From positions 1-10,433 of the forward strand of contig QNYL01000227.1 of assembly GCA_003973375.1 (NCBI GenBank): a stretch of 10,433 bases of DNA. The letters run 5' to 3'. Source of the stretch: Flavobacteriia bacterium (lineage in GTDB: Bacteria; Bacteroidota; Bacteroidia; Flavobacteriales; Flavobacteriaceae). Below the pieces are notes generated by a model. The model was given only the letters and a program-made list of their open reading frames with translations, was not told the origin of the DNA and searched no databases. The translations under genes and the position numbers were made by a program. Below are positions 2,175 to 10,412 of this stretch, piece by piece. Position 1 is the first letter of the stretch. Each line of letters starts with the position of its first letter.

Positions 2175-2246
2175 ATGAAAAACATATTTGATTTTTTTAC
2201 CCGCTTTTATTTTTACTTTTATTTTATAGATAAAAGCGAGATATGA
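2175..2246 (+). CDS. Phe/Tyr-rich attenuation leader peptide (23 codons)
   Basis: The ATG at 2175 opens a 23-codon frame ending in TGA at 2244-2246. It reads MKNIFDFFTR, then FYFYFYF, then IDKSEI. Phe is at codons 5, 7, 8, 11, 13, 15 and 17, and Tyr at 12, 14 and 16: ten aromatic codons of 23. The start has the A-rich context usual in flavobacteria and lies just after the predicted transcription start. The peptide itself need have no function. It resembles E. coli PheL in role, a short frame whose control codons precede a terminator, but here both Phe and Tyr are read, matching an operon that makes both. The alternative, a chance aromatic run in T-rich DNA, is made unlikely by the stop position, the paired hairpins and the downstream genes. 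Confidence 0.85.
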   Translation: MKNIFDFFTRFYFYFYFIDKSEI

Positions 2247-2290
2247 TATGTATATGATAAATAAGATATAAACATAGAAGGTCTCGATTT
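2202..2290 (+). promoter_or_regulatory. Attenuator folds: pause hairpin and competing antiterminator
   Basis: Region 1 (CGCTTTTAT, 2202-2210, within the aromatic codons) pairs perfectly over nine bases with region 2 (ATAAAAGCG, 2230-2238). Region 2, read as AAAGCGAGAT (2233-2242), can instead pair with region 3 (GTCTCGATTT, 2281-2290) with one G-A mismatch and one wobble. Region 3 is also the left arm of the terminator. A ribosome stalled on Phe or Tyr codons would cover region 1, free region 2 to bind region 3 and let transcription reach pheA. A ribosome that reaches the stop codon at 2244 would cover region 2 and allow termination. The pairings were found by eye; no energies were calculated. 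Confidence 0.78.
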
Positions 2291-2310
2291 AAAATCGGGA
2301 CTTTTTTTTT
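2281..2310 (+). terminator. Intrinsic terminator (attenuator) before pheA
   Basis: GTCTCGAT (2281-2288) pairs with ATCGGGAC (2294-2301) around a five-base TTAAA loop: eight pairs with one wobble. Nine T's follow at 2302-2310. The pheA ATG comes at 2320, so the terminator lies inside the transcription unit and upstream of all structural genes, which marks it as conditional. Confidence 0.88.
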
Positions 2311-2319
2311 AGTAAGAAT

Positions 2320-3165
2320 ATGAAAGTAGCAATACAAGGAATTGAAGGTTCGTTTCACGATATCGTGGCAAAAAAGTTTTTTGGAGAAGAAATTGAAACC
2401 CTTCAGTGCATGTCGTTCACAAAATTACCGGAACTGATAGAAAGTGATGAGGCCGATGCAGCAGTAATGGCAATTGAAAATTCCATAGCGGGGGCGATAC
2501 TGCCTAATTATGCACTGATCGATGAATACAATTTAAATATTAAAGGAGAGTTCTACCTGAATATCCATCATAATCTGATGGCTTTAAAAGGACAGCGTTT
2601 TGAAAATATTAAAGAAGTATGGTCACATCCAATGGCCCTGCTTCAGTGTAGAAAATTCTTCAGGGCCTATCCACATATCAAACTGATAGAGGAAGGAGAT
2701 ACTGCCGAAGTTGCCAAAAGGATCAGCCGGGATCAGATCAAAGGGGTTGCCGCCATTGCCAGTAAAGAAGCTGCTAAATTATTTGATCTTGAGATACTTA
2801 AAGATGATATTCAAACGATCCGGCACAATTCTACCCGTTTTTTTATCCTAAAAAAAGGGAAAAGTACTCCCTATTATAAGAGTAAAATGAATGGAACGAA
2901 AAATAAAGCTTCTATAAAATTCATTACAAAACACAACAAAGGAAGTCTGGCTGAAGTACTGGATATTTTTGCAAAGCATGAGATCAATCTCACCAAGATC
3001 CAGTCTATGCCAATTATAGATCAGCCCTGGAGCTATGCTTTTTTTATCGATCTTCTGATAGATGATTTTAAGTTGTATGAAAACGCATTGCATCTGATCA
3101 ATACCAAGGTGAAACAATTAAATATTTTAGGAGAATACGAGCAAAACAAGAATCATGAAATTTGA
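2320..3165 (+). CDS. pheA: Prephenate dehydratase with ACT domain
   Basis: PheA converts prephenate to phenylpyruvate with loss of CO2 and water, the committed step to phenylalanine. The 281-residue protein is a stand-alone dehydratase without a chorismate mutase domain. The catalytic part (about 1-180) carries IENS (52-55), SHP (102-104), DTA (127-129) and the STRF motif (171-174) with its catalytic Thr172. An ACT domain follows (about 198-272) with GSLAEVL at 208-214. The usual Phe-binding ESRP motif is replaced by QSMP at 228-231. It is first in the operon, just after the attenuator, and its end overlaps the aminotransferase start by 11 bases, suggesting translational coupling. The ATG at 2320 is the only start that keeps the N-terminal strand KVAIQG, with A at -3. 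Confidence 0.95.
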   Translation: MKVAIQGIEGSFHDIVAKKFFGEEIETLQCMSFTKLPELIESDEADAAVMAIENSIAGAILPNYALIDEYNLNIKGEFYLNIHHNLMALKGQRFENIKEVWSHPMALLQCRKFFRAYPHIKLIEEGDTAEVAKRISRDQIKGVAAIASKEAAKLFDLEILKDDIQTIRHNSTRFFILKKGKSTPYYKSKMNGTKNKASIKFITKHNKGSLAEVLDIFAKHEINLTKIQSMPIIDQPWSYAFFIDLLIDDFKLYENALHLINTKVKQLNILGEYEQNKNHEI

Positions 3166-4303
3166 TAAGGCCAATCGCTTAAAAAATGTAAAGGAGTACT
3201 ATTTCTCAACCAAGTTGCGGGAAGTGAGATCGCTTATGGCTGAAGGGAAACCTATCATTAATCTCGGTATAGGAAGTCCGGATCTTCCTCCGCCTGAGGA
3301 AGCGATCACTGCCCTAATTGAGGCTTCTTTAAATCCTGATAATCACGGATATCAAAGCTACCAGGGAATACCTGAACTGAGAAGCTCCATAGCGAATTTT
3401 TATAAGAAGAATTATAATGTAGATCTGGATGTTAATAAAGAGATTCTCCCTTTAATGGGATCAAAAGAAGGAATTCTTCATATCTCTATGGCCTATCTTA
3501 ATCCGGGAGATGAGGTCTTAATTCCCGATCCCGGCTATCCTACTTATACTTCGGTAACGCGACTCGTGGAAGCCCATCCTGTATTTTATGATCTGAAAGC
3601 AGAAAACAACTGGTTCCCCGATCTTGAAAAACTGGAAAACATAGATCTCTCTAAAGTAAAGATCATGTGGATCAATTATCCGCATATGCCAACCGGTACA
3701 AATCCAACAGATGAACTCTTTGTAAAACTGATCGATTTTGCAAAGAAGTATGAAATTTTACTGGTGAATGACAATCCGTACAGTTTTATTCTAAACGATA
3801 AACCTAAAAGTATTTTAAGTTTTAAGGGAGCCAAAGACGTAGCCATTGAATTGAATTCATTGAGCAAAACCTTTAATATGGCGGGCTGGAGAGTTGGTAT
3901 AGTGCTTGGAAATGAAGATAATATTAAAAATATTTTACAGGTAAAAAGCAATATGGATTCCGGAATGTATTACGGAATACAAAAAGGAGCGGTGGCAGCT
4001 TTGAACCTGTCTCCAGAATGGCTGGAAAAAATAAATGCCGTTTACAGTAAAAGAAGAGAGATTGTATGGGAGATCTGTGAAGCCATCCATTGCGATTTCG
4101 ATAAAGATTCCTCAGGTTTGTTTGTCTGGGCAAAGATTCCCAAAGGGCAAAGATCAACAGAGGTTACGGATGATCTGTTGTACAAAAAAGATATTTTTAT
4201 TACACCAGGAACTGTATTTGGTGAGAATGGCGAGGGATATATCCGGTTTTCACTTTGTGTAAAGGAAGATAAATTAAAGGAAGTTTTAAAAAGATTATCA
4301 TGA
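3155..4303 (+). CDS. PLP-dependent class I/II aminotransferase, probably aromatic
   Basis: This fold-type I aminotransferase of 382 residues is inferred from context to transaminate phenylpyruvate and 4-hydroxyphenylpyruvate, completing Phe and Tyr synthesis. Visible landmarks are the GSKEG cofactor-phosphate loop (102-106), Asp206 and Tyr209 in VNDNPYS, the PLP lysine Lys238 in SLSKTFNMAGWR (235-246), and the substrate-carboxylate Arg364 in YIRFS. Overall it resembles the LL-diaminopimelate/aspartate aminotransferase group more than E. coli TyrB. Where most relatives have NPTG, with an Asn touching the PLP ring oxygen, it reads HMPTG (177-181), so Met178 replaces that Asn. It overlaps pheA by 11 bases and tyrA by 4 (ATGA). 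Prephenate or diaminopimelate as substrate cannot be ruled out from sequence, so no symbol is given. Confidence 0.88.
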   Translation: MKFDKANRLKNVKEYYFSTKLREVRSLMAEGKPIINLGIGSPDLPPPEEAITALIEASLNPDNHGYQSYQGIPELRSSIANFYKKNYNVDLDVNKEILPLMGSKEGILHISMAYLNPGDEVLIPDPGYPTYTSVTRLVEAHPVFYDLKAENNWFPDLEKLENIDLSKVKIMWINYPHMPTGTNPTDELFVKLIDFAKKYEILLVNDNPYSFILNDKPKSILSFKGAKDVAIELNSLSKTFNMAGWRVGIVLGNEDNIKNILQVKSNMDSGMYYGIQKGAVAALNLSPEWLEKINAVYSKRREIVWEICEAIHCDFDKDSSGLFVWAKIPKGQRSTEVTDDLLYKKDIFITPGTVFGENGEGYIRFSLCVKEDKLKEVLKRLS

Positions 4304-5151
4304 AGAAAGTAGCAGTAATCGGACTGGGACTGATAGGCGGTTCACTGGCTCTGGAGTTAAAAAAGCATACCTGGTCAACGATCTATGGTATTGATAAGGA
4401 TCCGGAGCATTTGGAAAAGGCGCTTCAACTGGGAATCATCTTTGAAAAAGCAGATATGAGTATCGTTAAGGATGTAGATGTAGTGATCATTTCTGTTCCG
4501 GTAAATATTATTCCTCAGATTACTTTGGAAGTTCTTGATATGATTGGTGAAGACACTCTGGTTTTTGATGTAGGATCTACCAAGGCTGAGGTTTGTAATG
4601 CGGTTAAGGATCATCCGAACAGAAAGAACTTTGTAGCAATTCATCCCATTGCAGGTACCGAATTTTCAGGTCCTGAAGCCGCTATTTACGATCTTTTTTC
4701 CGGTAAGGTCAATATCATTTGTGAAAGTGAACTGAGCAGTGATAAAATGGTGGAAAGAGCTGTAAATTTATTTGAAACGATTAAAATGCGCAATGTTTTT
4801 ATGAAATCGGCTAAAAAGCACGACAAACACATTGCTTATGTTTCGCATTTGTCGCACATCAGTTCGTTTATGCTGGGGAAAACCGTTCTGGAAATTGAAA
4901 AGGATGAAAAAAATATCTTTAATATGGCGGGAAGTGGTTTTGCTTCAACCGTCCGACTGGCAAAATCGAATCCGGTAACCTGGACCCCGATTTTTTTACA
5001 GAATAAAAAATATATTTTAAGATCACTGGATGAATACATTAAAAATTTGAAAGAATTCAGGGAAGAGATTGAAAATGAAAATGAAAATGAGGTCTATGAA
5101 ACCATGGAAAAGACCAACAGAATTAAAAAAGTTTTAGAAGGAATAAAATAA
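4300..5151 (+). CDS. tyrA: Prephenate dehydrogenase
   Basis: TyrA oxidatively decarboxylates prephenate to 4-hydroxyphenylpyruvate with NAD(P)+, the committed step to tyrosine. The 283-residue monofunctional enzyme has an N-terminal Rossmann domain with GLGLIGGS (8-15). Asp32 (YGIDKD) at the end of the second strand favours NAD+. The domain continues with SVP (65-67) and DVGSTK (90-95). HPIAGTE (115-121) carries the catalytic His115. The helical dimerisation domain includes SHLSH (182-186) and Arg219 in STVRLA, positions that bind substrate in characterised relatives. There is no ACT or chorismate mutase domain. Near the end, three in-frame copies of GAAAAT (5071-5088) encode an acidic ENENEN stretch. 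The start overlaps the aminotransferase stop as ATGA, and the DAHP synthase follows after 11 bases. Confidence 0.95.
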   Translation: MKKVAVIGLGLIGGSLALELKKHTWSTIYGIDKDPEHLEKALQLGIIFEKADMSIVKDVDVVIISVPVNIIPQITLEVLDMIGEDTLVFDVGSTKAEVCNAVKDHPNRKNFVAIHPIAGTEFSGPEAAIYDLFSGKVNIICESELSSDKMVERAVNLFETIKMRNVFMKSAKKHDKHIAYVSHLSHISSFMLGKTVLEIEKDEKNIFNMAGSGFASTVRLAKSNPVTWTPIFLQNKKYILRSLDEYIKNLKEFREEIENENENEVYETMEKTNRIKKVLEGIK

Positions 5152-5162
5152 CAATTAAAGAA

Positions 5163-6242
5163 ATGGAAAATACGAAATTTAGAAAATGGCTGGATGAAAT
5201 GAATCTGGATCATCCTTTGGTAATTGCCGGACCCTGTAGTGCGGAAACAGAAAAACAGGTTCTTGAGGTAGCTCATGAAATAAAAAATACAGATGCAACC
5301 ATCTTTAGAGCAGGTGTATGGAAACCCAGAACACGTCCGGGTAATTTTGAAGGAAACGGAGTAAAGGCCTTGCCGTGGATGCAAAAGGTAAAAGAAGAAA
5401 CCGGAATGTTAACAGCAATTGAGATAGCCAATGCGCACCATGCGAAACTGGCTCTGGAATTTGATATTGACGTTTTATGGATCGGCGCAAGAACCGCAGT
5501 TAATCCGTTTGCCGTACAGGAAATTGCTGAGGCGATAAGAGAAACTGAAAAAATTGTTCTGGTGAAAAACCCAATCAACCCTGATCTTGCCCTATGGATT
5601 GGAGCCATAGAGCGTTTTTTTAAGATGGGCGTTAAAAATCTTGGTGCTATTCATCGAGGATTCTCATCGTTCAGACCCTCAAAATACAGAAATATACCGA
5701 ACTGGCAGATCGCTATTGATTTAAAGACAAAATATCCTGATCTGCCTATTATCAACGACCCGTCGCATATTACCGGAAACAGAGAACTGATCCAGGAAGT
5801 ATCACAAACAGCGCTTAATCTGAAATTTGACGGACTGATGATTGAAACTCATTGTACCCCCGATAAGGCCTGGAGTGACGCAGCACAACAGATCACCCCG
5901 AAAAGACTGGAGAAGATCATAGATAGTCTTCGTGTTCGAAAAGATACTTTCGATAAAGAAGAATTCATCTCAAAATTAGATGCATTCCGTAATGAGATTA
6001 ATGATAAAGATGATCAGTTAATTGAAACACTTTCTGAAAGAATGGAAATAGTTCATAATATTGGAAAAGCAAAAAAAGAAGGAAATGTTGCGGTATTGCA
6101 ATCGGACAGATGGCAGGAAATTTTAGAGGCCGTGGTATCAAAAGGAGCAGAACAAGGTCTGTCCCGTGAATTTATAGAAAAGATCTTTAAAGCGATCCAC
6201 CAGGAATCGATTCGGCATCAGGAAAGAATAATTAACAGTTAA
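5163..6242 (+). CDS. aroF: Bifunctional DAHP synthase (type I-beta) / chorismate mutase
   Basis: The N-terminal domain (about 1-260) condenses phosphoenolpyruvate and erythrose 4-phosphate to DAHP, the first shikimate-pathway step. The C-terminal AroQ-type domain (about 268-359) rearranges chorismate to prephenate. DAHP synthase landmarks are AGPC (22-25), KPRT (54-57), KNP (135-137), and the metal-ligand set Cys25, His202, Glu228 and Asp239. Mutase landmarks are Arg276 in helix 1, Arg293, Lys302 and a late Gln353. The 359-residue length and domain order match the Prevotella/Porphyromonas type of fusion, in which the mutase domain also mediates feedback by prephenate. It supplies the only chorismate mutase in the operon, as neither PheA nor TyrA carries one. 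It is last in the operon, followed by a strong terminator. Symbol usage varies in this family; aroF is one common choice. Confidence 0.94.
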   Translation: MENTKFRKWLDEMNLDHPLVIAGPCSAETEKQVLEVAHEIKNTDATIFRAGVWKPRTRPGNFEGNGVKALPWMQKVKEETGMLTAIEIANAHHAKLALEFDIDVLWIGARTAVNPFAVQEIAEAIRETEKIVLVKNPINPDLALWIGAIERFFKMGVKNLGAIHRGFSSFRPSKYRNIPNWQIAIDLKTKYPDLPIINDPSHITGNRELIQEVSQTALNLKFDGLMIETHCTPDKAWSDAAQQITPKRLEKIIDSLRVRKDTFDKEEFISKLDAFRNEINDKDDQLIETLSERMEIVHNIGKAKKEGNVAVLQSDRWQEILEAVVSKGAEQGLSREFIEKIFKAIHQESIRHQERIINS

Positions 6243-7673: not shown

Positions 7674-7937
7674 ATGAGAGCGATTCTTTGGCTGATTTTT
7701 ATCTCGGTAATAAGCCTTATCAGTTACGGTTATTACATCAACAGTTCCGATTTTGGAGGAGGTGAAAAATATATCGGTGCAGGGGTGATTTTATTTGCTT
7801 TTGTGCTAATGCCTTTGTTTATTTATCACCGATATAAAGGTCGTGATCTAAAGCAATACCGCTTGTTCCCTACTGAGGAGATGAATAAAGAGTACAAAAA
7901 AAAGAAAAATTCGGTAGATCAGAAATTACATAAATGA
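7674..7937 (+). CDS. Small two-helix membrane protein of unknown function
   Basis: I do not recognise this gene. From ATG 7674 it encodes 87 residues. There are two hydrophobic segments (about 3-20, starting RAILWLIFISVISL, and about 35-53, GAGVILFAFVLMPLFIYH), a short GGGEKY linker, and a strongly basic, Lys-rich C-terminus (KKKK near residues 75-79) that should lie in the cytoplasm. The frame is open back to a GTG at 7602, which would add 24 residues, but GTG starts are uncommon in this group and a -7 promoter match lies between the two. Its stop overlaps the desaturase start by four bases (ATGA), so the two are probably co-translated. Whether it works with the downstream genes or is an older resident they joined cannot be told. 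Confidence 0.7.
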   Translation: MRAILWLIFISVISLISYGYYINSSDFGGGEKYIGAGVILFAFVLMPLFIYHRYKGRDLKQYRLFPTEEMNKEYKKKKNSVDQKLHK

Positions 7938-8875
7938 TGAATAGTTCCAAAAATATAAAATTAGTATTTGAAACTATTTTAATTTTTATTGGTATAAGCA
8001 TGTTTTCTGTTTATGTTCACAAACTTCAAATAGAAAATATTTATTTAAAATGGTTTATTTATACAATACTCTTACTCTTTCAAGGTTTGTGGTTTTATCG
8101 TTTTTATATTGTTGGACACGAAAGTTCTCACCGAAAATTATTTGCTTCAAATGATACAATAAATGATATTGTGGGCAGTATTATCCTTCTCCCTTTAATG
8201 ACGCCTATAAATGTTTATCGTAAAATTCATATGTTTCATCATGGATTTAATAGAAAAGATAATCACACATCGGTTTTAGATACTTTTACAACCAAAAAAC
8301 CATCATTGTTAAAAACAATATATTTTTACATTCTTTGGTATCTTAGTGTATTTTTTGGTGGCTTATTTTTTCATTCTTTAGTTTCAGTAATTTTATTTCT
8401 TTTTATTCCTCCTAAATGGGCAAGAAAAATATCGCCTGCATTTGATGGTTGGACAATAAAAGACCAACTTAAAGCAATATTATTATTTAGTCTTGGAATT
8501 GGATTTCATTTCTTAATTTTTTATCAGTTTGGAAAAGATATTTATTTATGGACATTAGGATATCCATTGCTTTCTTTTGCGTGGGTTTTATCTTTGTTTG
8601 TATATATTTTTCATTATAAAACAACTGTTGGCAATAAGGTAAGATACAATGTAAGGTCTGTAAAGCATTTACCTTTTTTTTCTTGGTTATTGATGAATTT
8701 CAATGAGCACGCAACGCATCATCAATATCCTAATATTCCTTGGTATGAACTTCCTATAAAACGAACAGAATTGCCGAAAGAGTTTTCCGAAATAAACCAA
8801 AATACTTGGTGTTTATTTACTGCTATTTTTCAACAAATAAAAGGTCCCAGAATAATCGATGAAACAAAAAATTAG
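7934..8875 (+). CDS. Fatty-acid-desaturase-superfamily di-iron membrane enzyme
   Basis: This 313-residue integral membrane protein carries the three histidine boxes of the family that binds a di-iron centre: HESSH (62-66, HxxxH), HMFHH (99-103, HxxHH) and HATHH (259-263, HxxHH). The last is followed by QYPNIPWYELP, the usual P-x-x-P-W/Y tail of this family. Hydrophobic stretches at about 11-29, 38-58, 78-93, 128-158, 180-198 and 205-227 fit the four-helix-plus layout with the boxes on the cytoplasmic side. Members use O2 to desaturate or hydroxylate lipids, carotenoids or amino-acid head groups; the substrate here is unknown. It overlaps the upstream membrane gene by 4 bases and the GNAT-like gene by 17. 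Base composition is much more AT-rich than the phe/tyr operon (15 and 14 G+C in the 60-base rows from 8041 and 8461, against 31 and 29 from 4321 and 5401). Confidence 0.88.
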   Translation: MMNSSKNIKLVFETILIFIGISMFSVYVHKLQIENIYLKWFIYTILLLFQGLWFYRFYIVGHESSHRKLFASNDTINDIVGSIILLPLMTPINVYRKIHMFHHGFNRKDNHTSVLDTFTTKKPSLLKTIYFYILWYLSVFFGGLFFHSLVSVILFLFIPPKWARKISPAFDGWTIKDQLKAILLFSLGIGFHFLIFYQFGKDIYLWTLGYPLLSFAWVLSLFVYIFHYKTTVGNKVRYNVRSVKHLPFFSWLLMNFNEHATHHQYPNIPWYELPIKRTELPKEFSEINQNTWCLFTAIFQQIKGPRIIDETKN

Positions 8876-9479
8876 AAAATCAATTTTACAAGATGCTCAA
8901 CATTTTGTGCGTATAAAAAACAAACTACCACTACCCAAAGAAAATAAAGACACTACACAAGGAGGATTCTTATTAGGAACAGATATTAATACCTATAAAT
9001 TTTATATCGAGAATGGATATTGTTTAACCGGTGTTATTAAAGGCAAAATTGTTGGATTTGGAATACTTCTTCCTAATCAAATAGTAAAAAGCAGTGAATT
9101 GTGGGAGAAGCGGAAAAAAGTAAACTGGACAATAAATATTAATGATTTAGAAAACAACAACGTATCGTTTATTGAGCAGTTAGCCTTTTTAAGAGGACAC
9201 AGGAAGTTGTCACTAGTCTTATCATATAACCTAGTAAAAACGGGCTTTGATAAAGGTGCTGATTTTATACTAACAACTACAGTTCAAAAACCCATTATTA
9301 ATACCGCTGCAATACCTTATATCAAATCAATTGGAGGTTTTAAAATAGGAAACATTGATGAAATATACCCTAAAATTGGGAATATAAACTCAGATATATA
9401 TCTAATCAAAAAGAACTCTTTCTATAAAAAAATTAAAGAATTATCATTTTATGAATTATTAAAATCTAATGAATTGTAA
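8859..9479 (+). CDS. GNAT-like N-acyltransferase
   Basis: The 206-residue protein looks like a divergent GCN5-related acyltransferase. It opens with IRKSILQDAQHFVRI (5-19), the usual first strand and helix. GYCLTGVIKGKIVGFGIL (53-70) fits strands 2-3. FIEQLAFLRGHRKLSLVLSY (104-123) sits where the acyl-CoA pyrophosphate loop and following helix belong, with RGHRKLS as a degenerate form of the Q/RxxGxG/A signature. INTAAIPYIKSIGGFKIG (147-164) matches the late helix-strand with its N-x-x-A pattern. Substrate and acyl donor are unknown. Next to a lysine-aminomutase-like gene, an acyltransferase acting on beta-lysine is the natural suggestion, by analogy with the archaeal ablA-ablB pair, though I cannot claim homology to AblB. 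The start overlaps the desaturase end by 17 bases and the stop directly abuts the next ATG. Confidence 0.72.
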   Translation: MKQKIRKSILQDAQHFVRIKNKLPLPKENKDTTQGGFLLGTDINTYKFYIENGYCLTGVIKGKIVGFGILLPNQIVKSSELWEKRKKVNWTININDLENNNVSFIEQLAFLRGHRKLSLVLSYNLVKTGFDKGADFILTTTVQKPIINTAAIPYIKSIGGFKIGNIDEIYPKIGNINSDIYLIKKNSFYKKIKELSFYELLKSNEL

Positions 9480-10412
9480 ATGAGAGAAAAGTTAACACCA
9501 TATCTAAGTAAATTATCTCATAAATCAGGTATTTCCAAGCAATATTCACACAACATCAAGGAAAAAAATTTTGGACATTTCAACGACCCTTTGATGGAAG
9601 ATGCTCACGAAATGGTAAAAGGATTGGTACATAAATATAAAAATAGAGCCTTAATTAAGGTCAGTTATTTATGTGCTGCACACTGTAGGTTTTGTACACG
9701 AATTAGGCAAATAGGTAACCCAAAAGGAACTTTGCAAAAAGTAGATATTGAAAATATTGTTTGTTACTTAAAAGAACACCCCGAGATTGAAGATGTAATT
9801 CTATCTGGAGGGGATCCTTTTTTAACTCCTAAAATAACCGAATCATTACTTAAAAATATCAATAAAATTGATAGTGTGAAAGTAATTAGAATAGGAACAC
9901 GATTGCCTTTACAATCACCCGAATCTTTTGAAAGAAATTCAATTGGACAATTATTAGACACCATCAATAGAATAAGTATAGAAAAACCTTTTTATATTCT
10001 TTTACACGTAGAGCATCCAGATGAATTAACATCAGAAGCAATAACTTCCCTAAAGTTAATTAAGCAAAAAACAGCAACAATTCTGCTATCTCAAACTGTT
10101 TTTTTAAAAGGAATAAACATTGATTTTGATACACTGTATTCTCTTTTTACAAAATTGTATTTTTCAGGAATTACGCCCTATTATATTTATCATTGTGATA
10201 GCGTTAATGGCTTGGAACAGTTTGTAGGTAATATAGAAGAAGAAAAGGAAATAATGAGAAGACTTAGAGATACTTTAAGTGGAATTGCATATCCTACCTT
10301 TGTGGCTGATTTGGAAAATGAATATGGAAAATATCCTTTTGATTTAGAAATAATAAAAACTACTGCCAACAGCGTAATAAAAAATACGAATATATTTGTC
10401 CTTGACAAATAA
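9480..10412 (+). CDS. Short radical SAM enzyme of the lysine 2,3-aminomutase (KamA/EpmB) family
   Basis: This 310-residue protein should use a [4Fe-4S] cluster, S-adenosylmethionine and PLP to move an alpha-amino group to the beta carbon. The cluster motif is Cys65-x3-Cys69-x2-Cys72, followed by Arg74. LSGGDP (109-114) and the RIGTRLP strand (138-144) are typical of the family. Compared with Clostridium lysine 2,3-aminomutase, Arg74 matches Arg134 (carboxylate), Asp240 matches Asp293, Asp277 matches Asp330 (both bind the lysine side-chain amine), and Lys284 matches the PLP Lys337. The Asp-Asp (37) and Asp-Lys (7) spacings are identical. The PLP motif differs (LENEYGK instead of a glycine-rich loop). 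The protein ends 26 residues after that Lys, so the zinc-binding, tetramer-forming tail is absent, as in EpmB. No EF-P or EpmA gene is present. It directly abuts the GNAT-like gene, and the operon may continue to the right. Confidence 0.87.
   Translation: MREKLTPYLSKLSHKSGISKQYSHNIKEKNFGHFNDPLMEDAHEMVKGLVHKYKNRALIKVSYLCAAHCRFCTRIRQIGNPKGTLQKVDIENIVCYLKEHPEIEDVILSGGDPFLTPKITESLLKNINKIDSVKVIRIGTRLPLQSPESFERNSIGQLLDTINRISIEKPFYILLHVEHPDELTSEAITSLKLIKQKTATILLSQTVFLKGINIDFDTLYSLFTKLYFSGITPYYIYHCDSVNGLEQFVGNIEEEKEIMRRLRDTLSGIAYPTFVADLENEYGKYPFDLEIIKTTANSVIKNTNIFVLDK

Follow-up and report, generated by a model that had tools for sequence, protein, structure and literature searches.

In the 10,433-nt stretch of Flavobacteriia contig QNYL01000227.1 that we analyzed (hereafter the window), a four-gene aromatic amino acid operon is preceded by what the sequence evidence very strongly suggests is a ribosome-mediated transcription attenuator (probability roughly 0.93), which would sense charged tRNA-Phe and tRNA-Tyr and control pheA, an aminotransferase gene, tyrA and aroG/CM. 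As part of the same reading, many relatives' leaders would sense tRNA-Trp as well. The source contig, number 49 of a genome that is 75.7% complete, belongs to a genus with six genomes, and the close relatives that bear names are Flavobacteriaceae MAGs. All four operon genes lie on the forward strand: pheA (2320-3165), encoding prephenate dehydratase with an ACT domain (Pfam PF00800, PF01842); a class I/II aminotransferase gene (3155-4303; PF00155); tyrA (4300-5151), encoding prephenate dehydrogenase (PF02153, PF20463); and a gene for DAHP synthase fused to chorismate mutase (5163-6242; PF00793, PF01817). Further downstream in the window (7934-10412) is a cluster encoding a fatty acid desaturase, an unassigned protein and a radical SAM protein. 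Membership in the class of leader-peptide attenuators was judged on a Phe/Tyr leader ORF, a terminator before the first gene, mutually exclusive 2:3 and 1:2 pairings, spacing suited to a ribosome, and operon products that, by Pfam, are enzymes for making Phe and Tyr and for entry into the aromatic pathway; each of these was found.

Positions 2129-2310 of the forward strand carry, in order, a promoter, a leader ORF, hairpin 1:2, antiterminator 2:3 and terminator 3:4, after which the operon begins. The promoter (2129-2158) consists of TTG (2129-2131), 19 nt and TAGATTTG (2151-2158), which we take to be a match to the Bacteroidota promoter consensus; a scan for E. coli-type sigma70 promoters misses it. 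The leader ORF (2175-2246; MKNIFDFFTRFYFYFYFIDKSEI) runs from ATG at 2175 to TGA at 2244-2246 and has 23 codons, ten of them for Phe or Tyr, in a region that is very T-rich and in which TTT is the most frequent triplet. Within it, CGCTTTTAT (2202-2210) and ATAAAAGCG (2230-2238) form a perfect nine-pair hairpin, which the predicted fold lengthens to 11 pairs (2202-2212 with 2228-2238; -8.9 kcal/mol). Region 2, the left arm of the antiterminator, is CGAGAU at 2237-2242, supported by the predicted fold and by covariation with region 3. Region 3 (GUCUCG, 2281-2286), placed by the predicted fold and a three-way pairing view across relatives, contributes both the right arm of the antiterminator and some of the terminator's left arm. 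The intrinsic terminator (2279-2310) has a stem of 2279-2289 with 2293-2303 (-11.6 kcal/mol), is backed by pair counts in 48 relatives, and overlaps a run of nine T residues (2302-2310). A generic scan found one terminator-like site in 2000-2400, where 0.1 was expected. The first-pass annotation of this DNA had described the promoter, the 23-codon leader with ten Phe/Tyr codons, the nine-base hairpin and the T9 terminator, and the sequence has each of them where it had placed them.

Predicted folds of the leader RNA depend on where a ribosome is assumed to sit. The 147-nt leader RNA folds 4.1 standard deviations below its shuffles, none of 200 of which equals it. With the polymerase placed at 2290, we folded 2225-2290 and 2234-2290, which omit the RNA that a ribosome stalled on the aromatic codons would cover. 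In both cases the minimum-energy structure (-11.6 kcal/mol) is the antiterminator 2237-2242/2281-2286 together with helices inside its loop (2247-2251/2272-2276 and 2253-2256/2267-2270), which bears out the earlier suggestion that an alternative pairing captures the left arm of the next hairpin. Omitting RNA up to 2257, to mimic a ribosome that has reached the stop codon, lets the terminator fold; without a ribosome and with the polymerase at 2290, hairpin 1:2 folds; and the full-length leader, when free of ribosomes, folds into 1:2 and 3:4 at once. In the complete RNA with region 2 free, the terminator is still a more stable end state than the antiterminator, so the switch must be kinetic, decided as region 3 emerges. 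The window's own 2:3 duplex is only 1.7 standard deviations better than with region 2 shuffled.

PheA was detected in 6 of 6 genomes from the genus and 102 of 120 from the family, in 48 of 89 genomes searched across the order (14 of them in the same family, source genome included) and in 32 of 119 across the class (three in the same family). From these searches and four named contigs we assembled 120 leader rows within the family and 44 outside it. The set leaves out 18 order-level and two class-level PheA matches without a locus, among them all 12 of one order family (f4) with distant PheA, as well as five divergent non-Bacteroidota matches (L040-L044), one row whose contig was shared (L002, with L036) and one whose genome was already in the set (L125). 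The best ORF had at least six aromatic residues in ten in 115 of 120 family rows, compared with 5.8% of dinucleotide shuffles, and in 26 of the 44 outside rows (counting a chance-like TTG ORF in L139), compared with 2.2%. Raising the threshold to at least seven in ten left 113 of 120 and 23 of 44, and the shuffles fell to 1.0% and 0.3%, respectively. Clear leaders also occur outside the order, for example in L151, L159, L161, L165 and L166. Four of the 120 family rows (L062, L098, L102 and L107) carry pheA with no leader of this kind ahead of it; in the fifth miss, L060, a contig end cuts the locus and a partial leader is visible. Among the 44 outside rows, 18 have fewer than six aromatics in ten, some of them with a shorter aromatic leader such as those of L118-L120. 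These 18 include five (L138 and L141-L144) of the six rows from a family of tiny genomes (about 0.6 Mb), the sixth being L139 with its chance-like ORF; all six keep pheA but show no such leader, and these relatives are perhaps insect endosymbionts.

L139 was dropped before the terminator count and two further rows (L012 and L169, whose hairpins lie beyond the script's limits) after it, which leaves 143 kept leaders. All 143 contain both Phe and Tyr, 81 contain Trp too, 142 start with ATG, and their median length is 24 residues. The aromatic codon run shows synonymous changes (TTT 410, TTC 209; TAT 305, TAC 104), and within the core A falls mostly at codon position 2 and C mostly at position 3, matching TTT/TTC and TAT/TAC, a pattern that the choice of ORF itself favors. 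In an alignment of eight close relatives, four carry a 6-nt in-frame indel. Counting against the reading, the close relative L038 has a gap of 8 nt and an ORF that stops sooner. By eye, the peptide is highly variable except in its aromatic core and the part that pairs.

The promoter is less widely shared. Of the eight rows in the alignment of close relatives, seven retain TATAGATTTGC, and TTG-N17-21-TANNTTTG lies at most 70 nt upstream of the leader in 34 of 143 relatives (0.3% of shuffles), so the exact pattern is a trait of the window and its close kin, not of all relatives. The -7 element by itself precedes 44 of 143 leaders (5.5% of shuffles). In the window, promoter and terminator would together yield a discrete short RNA, and this invites the idea that attenuation works as proposed while the attenuated RNA of about 145 nt, or the peptide, also acts in trans; the Sinorhizobium Trp leader peptide reported in PMC7298713 is a precedent. 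We regard such an added function as improbable, given how much the peptide varies beyond the parts that attenuation itself would use.

All three pairings of the attenuator leave their mark across relatives. The MAFFT alignment slid region 2, so it served the 3:4 count only, and 2:3 was assessed by permutation, in which region 2 was dealt among genomes, and by seeded pairing. The longest exact complement between a genome's own regions 2 and 3 averaged 5.40 nt, compared with 4.03 nt after permutation (sd 0.09; the highest of 5000 permutations gave 4.35). When each distinct arm was counted once (82 rows), the values were 5.56 and 4.08; limiting the set to 38 arms that are dissimilar to one another gave 5.50 and 4.02 (sd 0.15). 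The 1:2 duplex energy was -11.6 kcal/mol for own arms compared with -9.5 (sd 0.19) for permuted ones, and -12.2 compared with -9.9 (sd 0.39) in the thinned set. Related genomes do not count as independent samples, and we therefore give most weight to the thinned tests. For 3:4, 97.3% of cells in 48 relatives are paired, and the covariation score of 0.483 is higher than in any of 500 shuffles (mean 0.249) or any slide; two-sided changes occur in 6 of 7 pairs, a figure equalled by 9 of 500 shuffles. The 2:3 exact complement is just 3-4 nt in 34 of 143 genomes. When the stretch from region 2 to region 3 was cut at the best complement, 127 of 136 leaders had the antiterminator as their most stable fold, a count that omits the 7 of 143 without a 4-nt complement.

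In a three-way pairing view covering 47 of the 48 rows, region 3 has C or T at its middle position, to which region 2 responds with G or A in 45 of 47, although the view is seeded on the best exact complement, which biases it towards pairing. Where that position is T, the region 4 partner is A in 13 rows and G in 10, and the region 2 partner is A by 22 to 1. An A-biased region 2 opposite T may make for a stronger antiterminator, although locating region 2 by exact complement also favors A.

The spacing also fits a ribosome, whose footprint we took as about 13 nt. In the 109 leaders with a 2:3 complement of at least 5 nt, region 2 begins a median of 11 nt (5-95%: 7-13) past the contiguous aromatic run, or 13 nt when counted from where the 10-residue core ends, and in 96 of the 109 it ends within the ORF or its stop codon. 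From stop codon to terminator the median is 24 nt and the minimum 19 (n = 143). Together with the permutation tests (1:2 and 2:3), the pair counts (3:4) and the conserved leader and aromatic codons, these distances answer the comparative check that the first-pass annotation had called for, and uphold its view that the parts sit as the attenuation model demands. Riboswitch, T-box and TRAP-like systems typically have structured 5' regions with terminators too, and a terminator controlled by a ligand or protein, with an incidental ORF, would resemble what we see to that extent. But what is conserved here is an aromatic run in one frame with an ATG start, and alternative pairings at ribosome spacing. 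Such placement of region 2 is, as judged from the sequences, what ribosome control would require, and an aptamer would give no reason for it. Among the leaders compared, no conserved aptamer stood out. No family in Rfam release 15, including the T-box and riboswitch families, reaches its gathering score in the window, and we consider control of this kind very improbable, more so than an added trans function.

An intrinsic terminator stands between the aromatic core and pheA in 143 of the 145 leaders examined, at a median of 29 nt ahead of the start of the PheA match; in shuffled stretches the same finder made 22 hits in 715, falling to 1 in 715 once the cut-off was set at the score reached by 95% of real ones. 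Leader ribosomes are known to control translation in some systems, and control of pheA translation instead of termination would be one way to use such a leader, but a canonical terminator with its T-run, so regularly placed, makes this less probable still. The proposal that T-rich DNA, with TTT its commonest triplet, produced the ORF by chance and that the hairpin is an ordinary terminator can practically be dismissed: shuffles of the same DNA seldom reach the leader score, the pairings covary, and the long ORF upstream of the leader (1094-1987) is on the opposite strand and faces away, so the terminator can end only the leader transcript.

The anatomy, conservation, covariation and spacing above are observed; from them we infer translation of the leader, a switch that operates in vivo, the amino acids it senses and the sites where its transcript starts and ends. 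RNA polymerase would start a few bases ahead of the leader ATG. With ample Phe and Tyr, the ribosome would reach the UGA at 2244 and mask region 2, so that 3:4 would terminate transcription near 2302-2310. If Phe or Tyr were scarce, the ribosome would stall in the FYFYFYF run and leave region 2 exposed just 3' of it; region 2 would then pair with the emerging region 3, and polymerase would continue into pheA. In the absence of translation, hairpin 1:2 would fold and the terminator would prevail again. Read-through would thus be expected to rise upon starvation for Phe or Tyr.

The loop of the antiterminator holds a further conserved element. The motif TATG comes directly after region 2 in 73 of 134 relatives, compared with 10% of shuffles, and occurs in several reading frames. 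In the window it pairs, by the predicted fold, within the antiterminator loop (inner helices, 2247-2276), and it is possibly kept through this pairing. We had considered TATG as a polymerase pause site, since in the window 11 nt separate it from hairpin 1:2, but relatives disagree: over 77 of them the distance from the last paired base of the fold to TATG is 0-9 nt, with one at 13 and never 10-12, and so no pause is claimed.

Similar leaders precede other amino acid operons. Among 20 trpE-like loci (L273-L292), where trpE was assigned by open-frame length among chorismate-binding matches, the leader has WWW in 19 and WW in the remaining one, compared with 3 of 1000 shuffles having three Trp in ten; a terminator, mostly GGCTTGTC/GACAAGCC, precedes trpE in 19 of 20. 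Further loci have WWW (L266 and L269) or WW (L268). Of 19 hisG loci (L172-L190), 18 have a His-rich leader and a terminator (shuffles, 50 of 950); hisG was not found in the source genome. At 17 ilvD loci, only some have clear Ile/Val-rich leaders. Ile/Val/Leu-rich leaders with a terminator precede ilvD in L192 and L206, such as MKKQILNSLSIIVIVIILQG. At 17 thrA loci (L293-L308), the suggestive leader-like candidates are Thr/Ile-rich ORFs ending in TPLG, TPWG or TLWG-like residues in about 10 of 17 (by eye). A CCCC/GGGG hairpin lies inside the thrA ORFs, for example in L305, and the geometry differs from that of the pheA leader.

Taken as a whole, the system looks like a textbook mechanism that is old and widespread in Bacteroidia and little studied there. 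Going further, we lean towards viewing it as a general aromatic sensor (of Phe, Tyr and often Trp) that switches the whole operon, DAHP synthase included, and that is ancestral to Bacteroidia as one of a set of attenuators alongside at least those for Trp and His. The system also suggests that a single leader can combine codons for more than one end product of a branched pathway. The classic attenuation model is extended, with covariation, to a large and under-studied group, and the leader is a candidate Rfam family. Translation in Bacteroidota starts mostly without Shine-Dalgarno pairing. If this broader view holds, polymerase and ribosome would be closely coupled in this phylum; the leader offers a ready genetic test of transcription-translation coupling there. 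The broader view would also mean that leader-peptide attenuators are not essentially a gammaproteobacterial invention, contrary to the origin of such motifs suggested in a passage of PMC3766115.

Attenuation by leader peptides has a literature outside Proteobacteria. In 2010, the authors of PMC2965389 stated in one passage that, to their knowledge, such systems were undemonstrated beyond Proteobacteria and Actinobacteria, except for ermC and their own Firmicutes case. A survey of the same year by Lopatovskaya et al. is cited in a section of PMC4833913, and leader-like short ORFs in Bacteroides are mentioned in part of PMC7366714. Actinobacterial and corynebacterial attenuators (PMC1262725, PMC11857589) are reported to share the mechanism outside Proteobacteria but control other operons in another phylum. 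Among the matches listed, in which subscription literature is thinly covered, we found no publication giving the codons or pairings of a pheA leader in Bacteroidota. The first-pass annotation had left it undecided whether the element was described for this lineage. It mostly has been: a section of PMC9723704 (2021) on F. psychrophilum presents strong clues to leader-peptide attenuation before amino acid operons and a 5' element before pheA that is conserved in other Flavobacteriaceae genera, without an Rfam hit, and the phylum has its known Trp leader, RF01692. The F. psychrophilum element shares gene and family with ours; the section text comes without sequence, codons or pairing, and the two elements are likely identical.

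Two of the closest known systems differ from the window leader in what they sense. The enterobacterial pheL-pheA attenuator (RF01859, Phe_leader) likewise has a Phe-rich leader peptide, alternative hairpins and a terminator before pheA, but it is Phe-only, whereas in the window Phe and Tyr alternate, the operon serves both, and relatives often add Trp. RF01859 scores 20.3 bits (E 0.3) against the window leader and does not reach its gathering cut-off of 55. Bacteroid-trp (RF01692), which appears in a list in PMC2864571 as a Bacteroidete tryptophan peptide leader RNA, is a leader-peptide attenuator of the same phylum that differs in sensing Trp. It has no match at its gathering cut-off of 49 anywhere in the window, nor at E 5 in 2100-2340; scans of the trpE leaders L286 and L288 gave no match either, and the source genome's own trpE-like leader (L277, G000:C197) matches it at 55.3 bits, above the cut-off of 49. 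With a pheA element already noticed in one species and the mechanism already proposed for the lineage, the novelty of the window leader is modest; what is added here is the mixture of Phe and Tyr (and Trp) codons, the class-wide range, the covariation, the footprint spacing and the sister Trp and His leaders.
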